Positions 3,334-23,807 of a DNA stretch of 32,173 nucleotides are shown here, piece by piece. Source of the DNA: Thermoanaerobaculales bacterium. Lineage in GTDB: Bacteria > Acidobacteriota > Thermoanaerobaculia > Thermoanaerobaculales > Sulfomarinibacteraceae. The stretch lies in the NCBI GenBank assembly GCA_021107705.1, contig JAIOSJ010000145.1, forward strand, positions 1-32,173, in the 5' to 3' direction. The notes beneath the pieces were generated by a model, which was given only the letters and a program-made list of their open reading frames with translations, was not told the DNA's origin and searched no databases. The position numbers were made by a program, and so were the translations under genes. Position 1 is the first letter of the stretch. Each line of letters begins with the position of its first letter.

Positions 3334-4005
3334 ATGCATGATGAGACCACCGTGTCAGCTGAAGATCGCGAAGGGCAGAGTGAGGTGATCGAGATCGAAA
3401 TCATTGAGGACGATCCAGCGCTTTCGGATGCCGGCGATGAGATTACTGTTGAGGGGGCCGAAGGGGATGTTGTCGTCGACGGCATCGAGGAAGCCGGCGA
3501 CGATGTGGTAGCTCTCAAGGATGAAGTAGAACACCTGCGTGAAATGTATCTTCGAAAGTTGGCGGAATTCGACAACTTTCGTAAGAGAATCGAGAGGGAG
3601 CGAGTCGAGATGGTCAAGACTGCAGGAAGTGAGGTCGTCCTCGATCTCATTCCGGTCCTCGACAATTTTGAGCGGGCGCTGGAACATTCCGGTGATTCAA
3701 GCCCGGAGTCGATTCTGCAGGGTGTGAATATGATCTCCAAACAATTCTTGGAAGTGTTGGAGCGTCGCGGGCTCGAGCAGTTCGACCCTACGGGTGAGCC
3801 CTTCCAGCCTGAAATTCATGATGCCATTCAACGAGTCGATGATCCGAATCTGCCGCCGGGAACTGTGGCCTGGGTTTTGGCGAGGGGTTACCGCTACGGT
3901 GGCCGCCTCCTCCGTCCGGCGATGGTTGGCGTCACGGCTGAAGAAACAACGATCGTGAATGCGTCTAAACCCGCGGATGCGGGAGGCGGGGAGACCGAGT
4001 CGTGA
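3334..4005 (+). CDS. grpE: Nucleotide exchange factor GrpE
   Basis: YLRKLAEFDNFRKRIERE, VLDLIPVLDNFERALEH, YRYGGRLLRPAMVGV; immediately upstream of dnaK. Confidence 0.95.
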   Translation: MHDETTVSAEDREGQSEVIEIEIIEDDPALSDAGDEITVEGAEGDVVVDGIEEAGDDVVALKDEVEHLREMYLRKLAEFDNFRKRIERERVEMVKTAGSEVVLDLIPVLDNFERALEHSGDSSPESILQGVNMISKQFLEVLERRGLEQFDPTGEPFQPEIHDAIQRVDDPNLPPGTVAWVLARGYRYGGRLLRPAMVGVTAEETTIVNASKPADAGGGETES

Positions 4006-5864
4006 GCAAGATCATCGGTATTGATCTCGGTACTACTAATTCCTGTGCGGCGGTCGTGGATGTCACCAATCCGGTTGTGATTCCGAATCGCGAAGGGGCG
4101 CGTACGACACCATCTGTGGTTGCCTTCACCGCATCCGGCGACCGGTTGGTCGGACAGATCGCTCGGCGTCAGGCCATGACCAATCCGGAAAACACAGCCT
4201 ATTCGGTGAAACGCTTGATCGGGCGCAAATTCGATGCTGAGGAGGTTCGATGGGCACGGTCCCTGGTGCCGTACGCGATCGTTGAATCCGAAAACGGTGA
4301 TGCGTGGGTGAGGATCCATGGCCGGGATATGAGTCCGCAAGAAATCTCCGCTGCGGTGTTGCGGGAGATCAAGGAGTTCGCCGAGGAGTTCGTTGGTGAA
4401 GAGGTAACTCAGGCAATTATCACCGTTCCGGCCTATTTCGACGACAGCCAGCGCCAGGCAACCAAGGACGCCGGAGCAATCGCAGGATTGGACGTGCTGC
4501 GCATCATCAACGAGCCGACTGCAGCCTCTCTCGCCTATGGTTTCGGCAAGGACAGAAATGAAATCCTCGCGGTGTATGACCTCGGCGGAGGTACGTTCGA
4601 TATTTCCATCCTCGAGATCGGGGAGGGGATTCTTGAGGTCAAGTCAACTGCGGGCGATACCTTTTTGGGGGGTGAGGATTTTGACGCCAGGGTCATGAAA
4701 CGCCTTCTCAAACAGTTCACACAGGACACCGGGATCGACATGTCCGACGATACGATGGCCATGCAGCGGATCAAGGAGGCTGCCGAAAGTGCAAAATGTG
4801 ATCTTTCGAATGCCGAGGTAACTGAGATCTCCCTGCCCTTCATCGCCGCAGATCATACTGGACCCAAACACCTTCAGGCGCGCCTGACCCGGAGTCAGCT
4901 CGAGGAACTGGTCAGGGATCTTGTCGAGCGCACCCTTGAACCCTGCCGCAATGCCCTTGAGGCGGCTCGCTTGACGGCAAAGGACATCGACCAGGTCATC
5001 TTGGTCGGCGGCCAGACGCGGATGCCGTTGGTGGTTGAGAAGGTGAGCGAGTTCTTCGGCCGTGAGCCGTACCAGGAGATCAACCCGGATGAAGTTGTGG
5101 GTATCGGGGCAGCGATCCAGGGGGGAATCTTGCGAGGAGAGGTCAAGGACCTCATCCTGCTGGATGTGACACCACTGTCTCTCGGTATCGAGACTCACGG
5201 TGGCCTCTTCACGAAGATCATCGAACGAAACTCAACGATCCCCACCAAGAAATCGATGGTCTTCACGACCGTGGCCGACAATCAGACGACGGTTGATGTT
5301 CACGTTCTGCAGGGTGAGCTGGGAATTGCAAACGAGAATCGTTCCCTCGGTCGATTCGATCTGGTGGGTGTGCCTTCCGCTCCGCGTGGAGTGCCACAGA
5401 TCGAAGTGACGTTCTCGATCGACTCCAATGGGATTGTCCATGTAGGCGCCCAGGATCTCGCAACCGGCAAAGAACAGAGCATTGAGGTCAACCCAGCGGG
5501 TGGTCTGTCGAAGGCCGAGATTGACAGCCTCATCTCAGAGGCCGACAAATTCCGTCAGGAGGACCATGGTCGGCGCGAGATTCGGCACCTCCAGAACCGG
5601 CTTGAAGGCTTGCTCTACACCAATGACAGAGTCGTTCGAGAATTCGGCGGCAGCCTCAATTCCGAGGATCGGGAAGAGGTCCGGTCGACTCTGAACCGAG
5701 CTCGCAAAGCGGTTACCGTCGAAGAGCGATCGGTCCTCGAGGAGGCCATCTTGGCGGTGCAGCAGGCTTCCAGAATTCTTACCGAGGTCATCATGATGGA
5801 TCCATTGACTGCACTGGGGATGGTGGGGTTAAGCGATTCCTCAGACGACGGATCGGACGCGTAA
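4002..5864 (+). CDS. dnaK: Molecular chaperone DnaK (Hsp70)
   Basis: [65 protein letters not shown] start overlaps the grpE stop by 4 bp. Confidence 0.98.
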
Positions 5865-7028: not shown

Positions 7029-7883
7029 ATGACGGGGACCGAGTTCACGACCGTAAATCTTTGGATCGCAGAAGATCGCGAACCTAATTTGGCCGAAGTC
7101 CTTGGGTCTCATGCCACTCTCGGCTCGATGCTTGGATCGGTCTTTGAAGGTCGGGTCGAAGCGACGATCTACCTGGACTCCTCTCAGGAGCCGGTCATTC
7201 CCTCTCTGCTTCAGGATCTGGAAGGATTGGCCTGTTCTGAGTTAAGGGTCGGTACTCTTCCCGGCCAGGATTGGTTGAAGGCTTATCGTGAAAGGGTCAA
7301 ACCCTTCTCGTTGGGACGGACCTGGTGGATCGATCCCCACCCGCAGATGCCGAGTCAAGCTCCGAAAGGCCGTTTGAGGTTAGTGATCGAGCCCCGGATG
7401 GCCTTTGGAACAGGGTCCCACGAATCGACCCATCTCGTCCTTCTCGAACTCGAGGATGATCCACCGGAAGGGCTTTCGGTCATGGACATCGGCACCGGAT
7501 CGGGCATCCTGGCCCTCGCGGCGGAGCGACTGGGAGCGGTCAGAACGGTTGGGCTTGACATTGACCTCCAAGCCGTCATTGTGGCCCGACAGATCGTCGC
7601 GGACCAGGATTTCGCATGTTCGCCAGGATACCTGGCTGGTCCGCTGGCGGCCGTGGGCCGAGGTGAATTCAGCCTGGTTCTGTGCAATATGATCTCAGAG
7701 CATTTTCGGCCGTTGATCGCCGGCATCCGCAGGATCATGACTGCCGAAGGAACAGCGGTTTTCTCCGGGGTTCTCGCGAAGGAGGCCGAGGAGGTTTCCC
7801 TGGCCCTCGAAAAAGGGGGCTTGAGAGTCGAGAAAACCAGACATCTTCATGACTGGGTTGCGCTGAGGGTCCGTCGTGGCTAG
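7029..7883 (+). CDS. prmA: Ribosomal protein L11 methyltransferase
   Basis: RLVIEPRMAFGTGSHESTHL, VMDIGTGSGILALAAERLGA; placed after dnaJ as is common. Confidence 0.9.
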   Translation: MTGTEFTTVNLWIAEDREPNLAEVLGSHATLGSMLGSVFEGRVEATIYLDSSQEPVIPSLLQDLEGLACSELRVGTLPGQDWLKAYRERVKPFSLGRTWWIDPHPQMPSQAPKGRLRLVIEPRMAFGTGSHESTHLVLLELEDDPPEGLSVMDIGTGSGILALAAERLGAVRTVGLDIDLQAVIVARQIVADQDFACSPGYLAGPLAAVGRGEFSLVLCNMISEHFRPLIAGIRRIMTAEGTAVFSGVLAKEAEEVSLALEKGGLRVEKTRHLHDWVALRVRRG

Positions 7884-8058
7884 CCCGCATATCTCACCAG
7901 GTATCTACTGCGGGCGGCGTATGGCAGCCATCTGTCGTGCTTTTCGCAAATCGTTCTCCTCGAAGGAGCGCTACTCCAACTGCGTCGCCCGATTTCCGAA
8001 AAACTCAACACCTAACGACCCTTCGCAGCCCTCGTTACGAAAAGGGTGAGAGATGCGG
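7884..8058 (+). repeat. Dispersed inverted-end element, copy B (complete, about 175 bp)
   Basis: Left end CCCGCATATCTCACC starts 1 nt after the prmA stop; right end GGTGAGAGATGCGG contains the rsmE ATG. Core shared with copy E. Confidence 0.85.
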
Positions 8059-8772
8059 ACTGATCCGTGGTTGCTGGTGTCGCCGGGTTCCCTCAAGGTA
8101 GGGGTGGATATTCTATTGGATGAAGAGGAGGCGCGCCACGCTTCGGGAGTGCTTCGGTGTCGGGTGGGGGATCGCGTTGTGTTGGCCGATGGGGCAGGGG
8201 TTGTTGCCCATGCCGAATTCATCGAGTGCGCCCGGTCACGGGCCGTGGTGCGGATAACCGGTGTCGAGAGGACCGAAGAAACCACCGGCGGGGTTCAGCT
8301 TGTGTTGGCCGTTCTCCACACCAAGGCGATGGACTGGGCGGTTCAGAAGGCCGTGGAAGTCGGAGCACAGTCACTGTTTCCGGTTGTATGTGGGCGTTCC
8401 CAAGGGGATGTTCACGGCGCCGGGCGCCGTCTCGATCATTGGCGGCGAGTCTCGCGTCAGGCCCTCAAACAGTGTCACCGGCCATGGATGATGAAAGTAT
8501 TCGAGCCGGAGGACCTGGAAACGGCGATCGGTAGGATCGCTTCCGGCGTAGTCGCCGACCCTGAGGGAGGACAATTGGAGAGTCTTCCTCTCGAGGTGTG
8601 CCGAACTCTGCTTGTGGGTCCCGAGGGTGGCTTCACACCTCGAGAGATCATGAGACTGGACGAGACCGATTGGCTTCGGCTCAACCTCGGGCCTCATGTT
8701 CTGCGGGCCGAGACTGCCGCCATTGTCGGTGCTGCAATTCTCGGAATGAGGTTCGGCCGAAATTCGTCCTGA
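8053..8772 (+). CDS. rsmE: 16S rRNA (uracil(1498)-N(3))-methyltransferase RsmE
   Basis: EEARHASGVLRCRVGDRVVLADG, KAVEVGAQSLFPVVCGRS, LLVGPEGGFTPREI, LGPHVLRAETAAI. Confidence 0.93.
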   Translation: MRTDPWLLVSPGSLKVGVDILLDEEEARHASGVLRCRVGDRVVLADGAGVVAHAEFIECARSRAVVRITGVERTEETTGGVQLVLAVLHTKAMDWAVQKAVEVGAQSLFPVVCGRSQGDVHGAGRRLDHWRRVSRQALKQCHRPWMMKVFEPEDLETAIGRIASGVVADPEGGQLESLPLEVCRTLLVGPEGGFTPREIMRLDETDWLRLNLGPHVLRAETAAIVGAAILGMRFGRNSS

Positions 8773-8805
8773 CCGGCGGTGCTACACTCCCGCGCCATGG
8801 TTAAT

Positions 8806-9054
8806 CCCCATATCTCACCAGTTTTCTACTGCGGCCGGCGGTGTACTGCACCCAGTGTCGTTTTCTCGCTTCGGGATGCTCGCCGAGCCCACGCTGGCCC
8901 CTTCCGGGGCCTCGCGCCTTCGGCATGGCCGCCCTTTCGGGCGGTGCGCGAGGTCCCTACTGTCGAGTACAAGCCGCGCCCGATAATCGGGTCGAAAACA
9001 CCGCTGAGCACGGTGCCTCCCCGCCCTCGCGACGAAACCCGGTGAGAAATGGGG
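8806..9054 (+). repeat. Dispersed inverted-end element, copy C (complete, about 249 bp, distinct core)
   Basis: Left end CCCCATATCTCACC; right end GGTGAGAAATGGGG. Core contains additional small palindromes (GGCCCC-TTCC-GGGGCC, CCGCCC-TTTC-GGGCGG). Confidence 0.82.
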
Positions 9055-9843
9055 ACCATAACCGAATCTTGTTGGATTGACTCCCACGCTCACCTCACGA
9101 TGTTCGAGCCGGACGAAGTGGTTGCAACCTTGGATCGAGCGGCGGATGCAGGAGTCGTCGGCGTTCTGATTCCGGCGACGGGGCCGGACGACCTTGAGCG
9201 AACCCTGGCTCTTGGTCGAGAACACGGGTCACGAGTGTCGATCGCCGTCGGTACCCACCCTCACGATGCCTCCTCTTTGGATCGAGCGTCCAAGCAGAGG
9301 CTCACCAGAGTTTTGGATGAGCCCGGAGTGGTTGCTGTGGGGGAAATTGGTTTGGATTACCACTATATGAATTCGCCACGAGAAGACCAGCTTCAGGCCC
9401 TCGAGTGGCAACTGGATCTGGCCCTTGAGGCGAATCTTCCGGTTATTCTCCATAATCGCGATTCTTGGGAAGACCTGGAATCTCTGTTGGTTCGCCGTAC
9501 CGGTCTCCTCCGTGGCGTCTGTCATTCGTTTACGGAGGGACCCGATCGGGTTCGAAAGGTCATGAAACTCGGTTTGTATGTGGGTGTTTCCGGGATGGTG
9601 ACTTTTCGCCAGGCGCACAACATTCGGGAGATGGCTGCGGCGGTGGATATTGACCGCTTACTGGTCGAGACCGATAGTCCTTTTCTCGCCCCTGTGCCCC
9701 ACCGTGGGAAACGAAACGAACCTTCGTTTATCCCGTTCGTCGGCCGGGCAGTGGCACAGGAACTCGGTCTCTCGGTTGATGAAGTTGCCGCCGGAACCAC
9801 GGCGAATGTTGAACGTCTCTTTGGTTTTCGTCCGGAACTCTAA
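9049..9843 (+). CDS. tatD: TatD family metal-dependent hydrolase (DNase)
   Basis: WIDSHAHLTMFEPDEV, VGEIGLDYHY, LPVILHNRDS, LLVETDSPFLAPVPHRGKRNEP. Confidence 0.95.
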   Translation: MGTITESCWIDSHAHLTMFEPDEVVATLDRAADAGVVGVLIPATGPDDLERTLALGREHGSRVSIAVGTHPHDASSLDRASKQRLTRVLDEPGVVAVGEIGLDYHYMNSPREDQLQALEWQLDLALEANLPVILHNRDSWEDLESLLVRRTGLLRGVCHSFTEGPDRVRKVMKLGLYVGVSGMVTFRQAHNIREMAAAVDIDRLLVETDSPFLAPVPHRGKRNEPSFIPFVGRAVAQELGLSVDEVAAGTTANVERLFGFRPEL

Positions 9844-10025
9844 AAGCCCTGTGCCCTTCGTCCGCGAAGCGAAAGGCCCGAGAGGCTGTGAGATGTGTCT
9901 TTCTCGCGAAGTCGTAACTCGAAGGCGTATCAAGAGATACGTTGAGTGTGGCGACGAGCGAAAATCGTGCAGATTGCTGTCTATCGGGCATTGTAGCCGC
10001 GAGAGGGCTTGGCACAGGGCTTTTA
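9841..10025. repeat. Second inverted-repeat element (185 bp) with perfect 15-bp inverted ends
   Basis: TAAAAGCCCTGTGCC (9841-9855) and GGCACAGGGCTTTTA (10011-10025) are exact reverse complements. Internal hairpins CTTCG-TCCG-CGAAG and CGTATC-AAGA-GATACG. Confidence 0.85.
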
Positions 10026-10029
10026 ACCT

Positions 10030-10413
10030 TCAGGATGTCTTCGGGCGGCGACCACGACGCCTCTTCACTGATTTGAGATCCAACAGAAGCTTGCCGTCAC
10101 GATGTTGACTCACGGGGAACACCATTGGTTTGTCGATGACAAGGTTGAAGGCAAAAAAGAAATCCGGAGCCTTTATCGTCATCGAATTTCGGCGTTTTGA
10201 GATCATTAACGCACCCTCTTCGGCTCCGTTATTCATCAGTTGAACGCCGAGGATTTTCCTGGGCTTATCAAAGAACAGGACGGCGTGGGTCGCTTCTTTG
10301 ACCGCGAATTTTTCGACAGAATCACCATCAAGAGAGATGAGCCCTGATGGTCGGATTCGCGCCATAGGTTGTTTTACCTTTTTCTCGGTTGGGATGTATT
10401 TTTCGAAAGCCAT
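10030..10413 (-). CDS. Conserved hypothetical protein, basic C-terminus
   Basis: 127 aa, ATG start, lies between tatD and alr; no family firmly recognised. Confidence 0.6.
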   Translation of the reverse strand: MAFEKYIPTEKKVKQPMARIRPSGLISLDGDSVEKFAVKEATHAVLFFDKPRKILGVQLMNNGAEEGALMISKRRNSMTIKAPDFFFAFNLVIDKPMVFPVSQHRDGKLLLDLKSVKRRRGRRPKTS

Positions 10414-15531: not shown

Positions 15532-15559
15532 CCCGACCTTCTCACCCTATTTCGTGACG
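15532..15559 (-). repeat. Possible solo right end of the dispersed element family
   Basis: Minus-strand CGTCACGAAATAGGGTGAGAAGGTCGGG matches the right-end consensus CGCGACGAAACCCGGTGAGAAGTGCGGG at 21/28 positions. Confidence 0.35.
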
Positions 15560-17746: not shown

Positions 17747-17922
17747 CCCGCGTTTCTCACCGGTTTTCTGCTCCGACCGCAGATCTGGCGCACTGCGTGG
17801 TCCTTTTCACGATTCGTCTCCTGCGACGTGCCGTTGAGTACGACTCGTCGCCTCATCGGTCAAAAACCCACGCTGCGCACCATCTTTGTGGTCTCGCGAC
17901 GAGACCCGGTGAGAAGTGCGGG
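17747..17922 (+). repeat. Dispersed inverted-end element, copy D (complete, about 176 bp)
   Basis: Left end CCCGCGTTTCTCACCGG; right end CCGGTGAGAAGTGCGGG. Core shared with copy A. Confidence 0.85.
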
Positions 17923-21891: not shown

Positions 21892-22284
21892 TCATTCCGT
21901 ATTCATCCTCTTCCACACCAGGCGTCCGGCGCGGGCCGTTTCTCCGTCGACGATCACCAGGAGGGGCCCGATGGTTGACCAATGGCCGTCCTTGTACTTG
22001 ACGTAGGCATTGATGATCTGGCCGAAGAGGGAAACGCCCGGGATATCGCTTCGATAGGCAATGTCGCCTACCGTTTCCAGCAGCTTAAAGAGACCGCCGA
22101 TCTTTCCCCGATGGTCCTTCGCATGGCAGCCATCTGTCGTGCTTTTCGCAAATTGTTCTCCTCGACGGAGTGCAACTACGACTGCGTCGCCCAATTTCCG
22201 AAAAACCCAACATCTAACTAACCTTCGCAGTCCTCGCGACGAAAACTGGTGAGAGGTGCGGGCAAAAGGATCGGGTTTCGCCAC
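21892..22284 (-). pseudogene. Chimeric ORF: gene 3' fragment fused to element copy E
   Basis: First ~55 aa read through copy E; the remainder (DHRGKIGGLFKLLETVGDIAYRSDIPGVSLFGQIINAYVKYKDGHWS...) looks protein-like but has no start of its own. Confidence 0.45.
22123..22262 (+). repeat. Dispersed inverted-end element, copy E (left end missing)
   Basis: ATGGCAGCCATCTGTCGTGCTTTTCGCAAAT..GACGAAAACTGGTGAGAGGTGCGGG; near-identical core to copy B (7921-8058). Confidence 0.83.
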
Positions 22285-22963: not shown

Positions 22964-23216
22964 ATATGCATCATGACATCAAGGAAATTTGCTGTCAAGG
23001 CATCACAATATGTGGCTTGCCATTTTGCTGTTCGCAGAACACAAAAACTGGAAAGATGGACCTGGTGCGGGAGTCGTACCGATCCGTTCCACGGAAAGAC
23101 TGTTCGAGCCTTGAATCAGACTGTTTCTTCCTCTGGCGGACTGTTGAGGGTGTGATCAGCGCGCCGATGTTTTGAACGATCTCCCCGTGTGTCGCCCGGT
23201 TCGAATCACCGGCCTT

Positions 23217-23241
23217 CTGGTGCACCTGGTGGGTGCACCAG
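23217..23241. repeat. Perfect hairpin
   Basis: CTGGTGCACC-TGGTG-GGTGCACCAG, 10-bp stem. Confidence 0.7.
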
Positions 23242-23498
23242 CGTCGCATTGTCTGCGGGGCCGGAAAGCGGGTGTAATTGGAACGAATACCCGACCCCGC
23301 ACAAAAAGCGAGCGGCGGCCTGCCCAACTACCGGGAGAACTGTTTTTGAACGACCTGCCCGTGAGTTGCCAGGTCGGACCTGTTGCACCCACTCAAACTA
23401 AACGCGAATCTCCCGCCTTCCGCACAATGACCTGGCCTGGCTCTCCACGGGAAGCGCTCTCCGACCTTGGTCCTCCCGGAAACGAGGTAGGCCGCCGC

Positions 23499-23563
23499 TC
23501 GCCTGAGCAGCGTGGTCGCAGACGCCTCGACCATTTTCCTTCGCGACCGCGCTGCTCGGGCGA
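23499..23563 (+). repeat. Long hairpin in non-coding region (21-bp stem, 23-nt loop)
   Basis: TCGCCTGAGCAGCGTGGTCGC pairs with GCGACCGCGCTGCTCGGGCGA; 19 Watson-Crick pairs plus 2 G-U pairs if transcribed on the plus strand. Confidence 0.7.
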
Positions 23564-23807
23564 CGCTGGGGTGGCGAAAGCCGCACCAGAAGGCCGGGGA
23601 TGAAAGAATCCACAGCAACGCCCGTGGGGATGACCAACTTCGGGTGATTTATCCGCGGGGAGTCACGCCTGGTTTTGATTGATTTCCCGAGAGGGGCCGG
23701 GATTCCAATCTCAGGTTCACGGGTCGTTTCGCTTACTCGGGCCGGTCCGTCAGCCGAGTGAGAGAAGCCGCGTTACAATGCCCGGCAGAACTTGCTGAGG
23801 AGGATCC

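Follow-up and report, generated by a model that had tools for sequence, protein, structure and literature searches.

Start codons supplied by terminal inverted repeats (TIRs) have been described for MITEAba12 of Acinetobacter, where the TIR of three copies, read outward, encodes the four residues MQQS with which the adjacent gene begins (PMC6382973). MITEAba12 is 113 bp long, is flanked by 9-bp duplications and carries stop codons in all six frames; its authors stressed the promoters of the element (PMC6382973). Rickettsia palindromic elements (RPEs) are repeats of about 150 bp inserted into protein genes in a manner compatible with expression (PMC10969869), and the Coxiella MITE families QMITE1 and QMITE2 overlap annotated gene ends (PMC5896051). 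A text search of the Coxiella account found no start replacement there (PMC5896051), and in the literature that we searched MITEAba12 was the sole case of MITE-supplied starts. A gene normally does not survive an insertion just inside it.

In our analysis of a window of 32,173 nucleotides (the whole stretch of DNA analysed, from a Thermoanaerobaculales bacterium) the ATG of tatD at 9049-9051 lies within the right terminal inverted repeat of a MITE-like element, here called copy C. We consider it very probable that the AUG of the element has captured tatD, most likely through leader-coupled reinitiation. The features of the locus are the following:

8783-8799, plus strand: stranded ancestral tatD start, with TACACT (−10-like), the spacer CCCGCGCC and the old ATG at 8797-8799
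8797-9045, plus strand: tatD leader ORF of 82 codons, from the old ATG through copy C, ending with TGA (9043-9045) 6 nt before the new ATG
8801-8804, plus strand: left target-site copy TTAA, of the 4-bp YTAR type that flanks the element family-wide
8805-9055, plus strand: MITE-like element copy C, 251 bp, assigned by its terminal repeats and family size
8805-8819, plus strand: left terminal inverted repeat of copy C, TCCCCATATCTCACC, pairing with the right repeat at 14/15 positions
9041-9055, plus strand: right terminal inverted repeat of copy C, GGTGAGAAATGGGGA, with SD-like GGTGA, stop TGA and start ATG
9049-9843, plus strand: tatD (TatD family DNase, PF01026), start within the element; tatD homologues present in 40/41 genomes searched
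9056-9059, plus strand: right target-site copy position, now CCAT (degenerate); taken as the duplicate, it gives a codon count equal to that of the relatives

An earlier note on this DNA had placed the tatD start inside the right end of an element and had seen no other start ahead of the WIDSHAHL motif. The sequence at 9041-9055 is as described there, and when the frame was checked back to the in-frame TGA at 9043-9045, ATG 9049 was the sole ATG, GTG or TTG before WIDSHAHL. The same note read GTG at the equivalent position of copies A, D and E, and this was found again at 99-113, 17908-17922 and 22248-22262. The ORF is intact over 264 codons, its match to PF01026 is full-length (E 4.5e-71), DSHAHL is the metal-binding motif of TatD, and the predicted new N-terminus is MGTITESCW.

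The ancestral tatD ATG at 8797, directly left of copy C, had been overlooked in the earlier note. Positions 8783-8804 read TACACTCCCGCGCC-ATG-G-TTAA, and the end of this string abuts the start of copy C. In relatives of genus g9 that lack an element at this site tatD begins with TACACTCCCGCGCC-ATG (L090 and L093) or, with one change (TATACT), with TATACTCCCGCGCC-ATG (L092), followed in all three by 6 codons and TGG. In-silico excision of the 251-bp copy C together with one 4-bp target copy gives ATG GTT AAA ACC GAA TCT TGT TGG, i.e. 6 codons between ATG and TGG as in the g9 relatives. Since excision restores the codon count of the relatives, the insertion point of copy C in tatD is 4 nt past the A of the ATG, after codon 1. 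Start-codon capture, which the earlier note had held to be strongly implied, is thus supported by the empty-site comparison. Judged by the sequences compared, the old tatD ATG is replaced by that of the element, and the captured TatD is by the same comparison one residue longer than its ancestor.

The match of the tatD start to an element end is not due to chance, because GGTGAGANRTGCGGG with at most one mismatch has 240 matches in the 4.3-Mb genome and its reversed control has 4, and the counts for outward-facing pairs of the form TCTCACC-N(130-160)-GGTGAGA are 65 and 0, respectively. Aligned copies show the anatomy of a MITE. More specifically, there are 15-bp terminal inverted repeats, CCCGCAYNTCTCACC and GGTGAGANRTGCGGG, at both ends, the usual length is 175-178 bp (copy C has 251 bp), about 240 ends occur genome-wide, and the elements are without a transposase gene. 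Direct 4-bp YTAR copies (TTAG/TTAG, CTAG/CTAG, ATAG/ATAG) stand outside both ends in many copies and are degenerate at tatD. The genome has about 100 copies or more of this short non-autonomous element, and at least two more genera of the taxonomic family, g9 and g5, carry elements with these ends. Our sample consisted of about 65 stretches around exact ends, from contigs up to C361 of the genome. Among named genomes, Thermoanaerobaculales/Holophagae MAGs of the Acidobacteriota, with Candidatus Sulfomarinibacter among them, are the nearest to it. The window holds three further copies besides copy C and copy B (described below with rsmE):

1-113: copy A, right end at 99-113, cut by the contig edge
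17747-17922: copy D, without capture, since the adjacent gene on the minus strand starts at an ATG of its own (17726)
22120-22262: copy E, right end at 22248-22262, left part truncated

The family is not uniform. At 15532-15546 (minus strand) there is a variant end, GGTGAGAAGGTCGGG, with the target copy TTAG and lacking an RTG; the GGTCGGG form is seen at other places too, and a single copy often has it at its two ends. At the locus L010 (contig C6, about 3360-4177) two element ends at a distance of 818 bp enclose unrelated sequence, which may represent a composite or a MITE carrying cargo. Both ends of copy C share two changes from the consensus (TCCCCA/TGGGGA; 8805-8819 and 9041-9055), and among the loci fetched from the same genome this variant is restricted to these two ends. 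The paired change may be compensatory or may have been inherited from a variant copy or a rare subfamily. When the two positions were compared over the family, identical dinucleotides were found in 22 of 95 pairs while 29.6 were expected, therefore there is no general covariation of element ends. Searches of the window for Rfam families and tRNAs found none.

Other repeats were noticed in the same DNA. A second family with the ends ATCACCGGCCTTCTGGTGC and GCACCAGAAGGCCGG and a length of about 400-530 bp is present at 23205-23601 of the window and at 2113-2650 of L170, at least two copies in the genome. Just 3' of tatD, at 9831-10035, an inverted repeat (AAAAGCCCTGTGCC and GGCACAGGGCTTTT) surrounds about 155 nt and is perhaps a further small repeat element, and at 750-952 an imperfect array of 21-bp repeats lies within the minus-strand ORF 284-1987.

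The gene upstream of tatD offers a second case, in which copy B separates rsmE from the end of prmA:

7029-7883, plus strand: prmA (PF06325), its stop TAG within the left target-site copy of copy B
7876-7878, plus strand: putative ancestral rsmE start GTG, overlapping the prmA end, from the joined site compared with relative L100
7876-8049, plus strand: rsmE leader ORF of 57 codons through copy B, ending with TGA 6 nt before the rsmE ATG
7884-8059, plus strand: MITE-like copy B, 176 bp, target copies CTAG and CTGA
8053-8772, plus strand: rsmE (16S rRNA methyltransferase family; PF04452, PF20260), start within copy B, N-terminus of the same length as in relatives

The joined site reads GTG GCT (AGT or GAT) CCG TGG, i.e. 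M-A-S/D-P-W, and the relative L100 has MADPW. Relatives of genus g9 carry GGTGAGA(G/A)ATG ahead of rsmE with no clear element, so part of the rsmE match could be an ordinary SD; the g9 string may be such an SD or a remnant of an older insertion. In L090, L091 and L092 the rsmE start has GGTGAGAGATG or GGTGAGAAATG, and the intergenic region is long and differs between genomes.

Judging from sequence comparison, rsmE and about eight further genes besides tatD seem to have been captured alike, which makes about ten genes with the start and first codons in the repeat. This set was assembled partly by inspection. Joined sites at the eight loci besides tatD and rsmE recover a start to the left of the element, at a distance of 4-13 nt. 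Specifically, the reconstructed and relatives' N-termini are MTRGRV and MTRGRH for a HisKA/HATPase histidine kinase (C180), MGKIANILVVEV and MGIKANILVVEV for a PilZ protein (C279), MSEGSSSLTSDERKEL and MSNEPQQLSSDEREEL for a PAS kinase (C106), and MTEV and MKEV for a PPDK_N protein (C202), and an NFACT-R protein (C18) has equal length up to the PPPSD shared with its relatives. Empty-site support is less exact for an MMPL protein, a YceG protein, an ORF of C361 and rsmE. The old starts lie at offsets of 4 nt (six genes), 7, 10, 13 and 13 nt, all of them 1 mod 3, which is what restoration of the frame demands. At a sigma-54 regulator (L053), a Na+/H+ antiporter (L064), a symporter (L032), an ABC transporter (L011) and a Kdo-type kinase (L054) the old start is not visible, and the element RTG coincides with the start used in relatives or lies no more than about a dozen codons from it. 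At 1392-1410 of L085, uvrB appears to start at a GTG that a mutated element end, AATGTGGG, provides in a different frame.

The earlier note had offered a refutation of its own reading, namely that the terminal RTG would show no enrichment at gene starts. The enrichment was found: strongly coding ORFs (coding score at least 0.2) occur 21 times in the RTG frame and 3 times in the next, in a hand count over RTG-bearing ends whose 21 ORFs include a few that have a closer ATG themselves (L026, L046, L057) or lie on the minus strand and look antisense (L013, L053). The TAR of the target copy puts a stop into the third frame, and YTAR never stops the RTG frame. We also counted pre-insertion ORFs of at least 90 codons that have an ATG or GTG within 19 nt left of the element. 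The RTG frame is the one occupied by 11 of 15 such ORFs of the same genome (p 0.002 against one third) and by 15 of 21 when genus g5 is added (p 0.0004 against one third). In 9 of the 15 in-frame cases the old start is exactly 4 nt before the target copy, a position at which the new protein retains the entire old sequence plus one residue. The plain count of coding ORFs in g5 shows no frame-0 excess (18 ORFs in frame 0, 19 in frame 1), probably owing to antisense shadow ORFs at higher GC. As the plain count is unbiased there, the g5 replicate rests on few cases, 4 in frame 0 against 2 by the empty-site count.

How could ribosomes reach the new start? In every RTG-type end the terminus reads outward GG-TGA-GAN-RTG, continuing in the transcript as GGUGA-GAN-RUG-CGGG. 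GGUGA is complementary to the anti-SD sequence. Each such end therefore combines an SD-like GGUGA with a UGA stop and an RUG start, and the spacing is workable. In each of the ten captured genes an open leader runs from the old start across the whole length of the element and stops at the new start, with TGA at −6 in six genes (tatD and rsmE included) and the TAR of the right target copy at +8 in four. A leader stop at −6 or +8 is present at 50 of the 108 ends having both termini, which gives a hypergeometric probability of about 3e-4 for the 10/10. Among the likely captures in g5 it is 6/6, compared with 47/80 in the g5 background. This pattern suggests termination-reinitiation. The fold predicted for copy C has its SD and AUG base-paired with the left repeat (MFE −131.3, z −3.4). 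The predicted minimum-energy fold of copy B at rsmE leaves the two ends unpaired, so hairpin masking is not general.

The main alternative is that the start was replaced with no coupling, i.e. that GGUGA and RUG of the terminal repeat initiate TatD alone and the open leader is a by-product. GGUGA does fit the anti-SD at normal spacing, and the entering frame is open regardless of position in 51 of 81 full-length copies. Against direct initiation stand the excess of leaders that end at the new start among captures of both genera and the predicted pairing of SD and AUG in the tatD copy. We regard this alternative as possible, though not as the probable one. It is very improbable that the element merely sits in a promoter or leader region and that the ATG match is coincidental, with TatD starting elsewhere or tatD dead. 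Many copies are indeed intergenic and supply no start, copy D beside a gene with its own ATG being an example; at tatD, however, the frame offers no alternative start before DSHAHL, the full-length ORF is intact and the empty-site comparison agrees to the codon. That reads of different copies were joined at the repeat is hardly credible: the genome is a draft of 444 contigs and several contig ends lie at or near element copies, but copy C is flanked by both halves of the same ancestral tatD locus with the order rsmE-tatD kept, which makes a random join unlikely.

Our preferred explanation, capture with leader-coupled reinitiation, would proceed as follows. Copy C went into a YTAR site that lies 4 nt inside tatD (ATGG|TTAA), with a 4-bp duplication, and severed the gene from its own start. 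As the phase of the insertion set the element AUG in frame, this AUG is now very probably the TatD start. The old AUG is most likely still used: ribosomes would translate the 82-codon leader through copy C, stop at the UGA 6 nt ahead of the new AUG and reinitiate there. Translation of the leader might open the TIR-TIR hairpin that would otherwise bury the new SD and AUG, and reinitiating leader ribosomes may also protect the transcript. An insertion behind a start would survive mainly where translation of its leader terminates at the new start. That the cell uses the new start, translates the leader and reinitiates is what we infer from these patterns. It is a more doubtful proposal that the terminal repeat has evolved into a portable stop-SD-start module, in which end, target site and interior frame jointly rebuild expression by termination-reinitiation. 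If this is true, a MITE can colonise gene starts and leave the gene alive.

The results matter because one repeat family has seemingly cut host genes from their own starts repeatedly and replaced them while the ancestral starts are still legible. This is a natural matched series of genes before and after insertion for studying translational coupling, the evolution of start codons and the avoidance of harm by mobile elements. Gene callers may miss or misplace starts that lie in repeats.

With regard to transposition, the YTAR-type 4-bp target found here is of the kind expected of an IS5-family derivative. IS5 makes a 4-bp duplication with the consensus C(A/T)A(G/A) (PMC11677980), which is close to the YTAR site, and it is the site that would point to the mechanism. 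The difference from IS5-type insertion sequences is that no PF13586 or PF13359 transposase was found in the genome itself or in three related genomes (four draft genomes). A search of the draft assemblies by PF01609, PF13586 and PF13359 found no autonomous partner; two PF01609 genes were seen, both lacking the ends of the family.

The gene overlaps of QMITE1 and QMITE2 are, as described, mostly at 3' ends or comprise small ORFs as a whole; the element here supplies starts. RPEs are translated as internal in-frame peptides, whereas the present element adds 1-2 N-terminal residues; internal translation of the RPE kind was not found, as the old-start frame is stopped at the new start by UGA or by the UAR that the target copy provides. 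MITEAba12 resembles our family in being non-autonomous and in having terminal inverted repeats that supply a start. It differs in that three cases were reported with no empty-site comparison, compared with about ten genes with empty sites here, and in that the present family has a 4-bp YTAR site, an SD-like motif, stop and start together in the repeat, and an open leader. TIR-supplied starts as such are already known from MITEAba12; the scale, the empty sites and the stop-start architecture look new.
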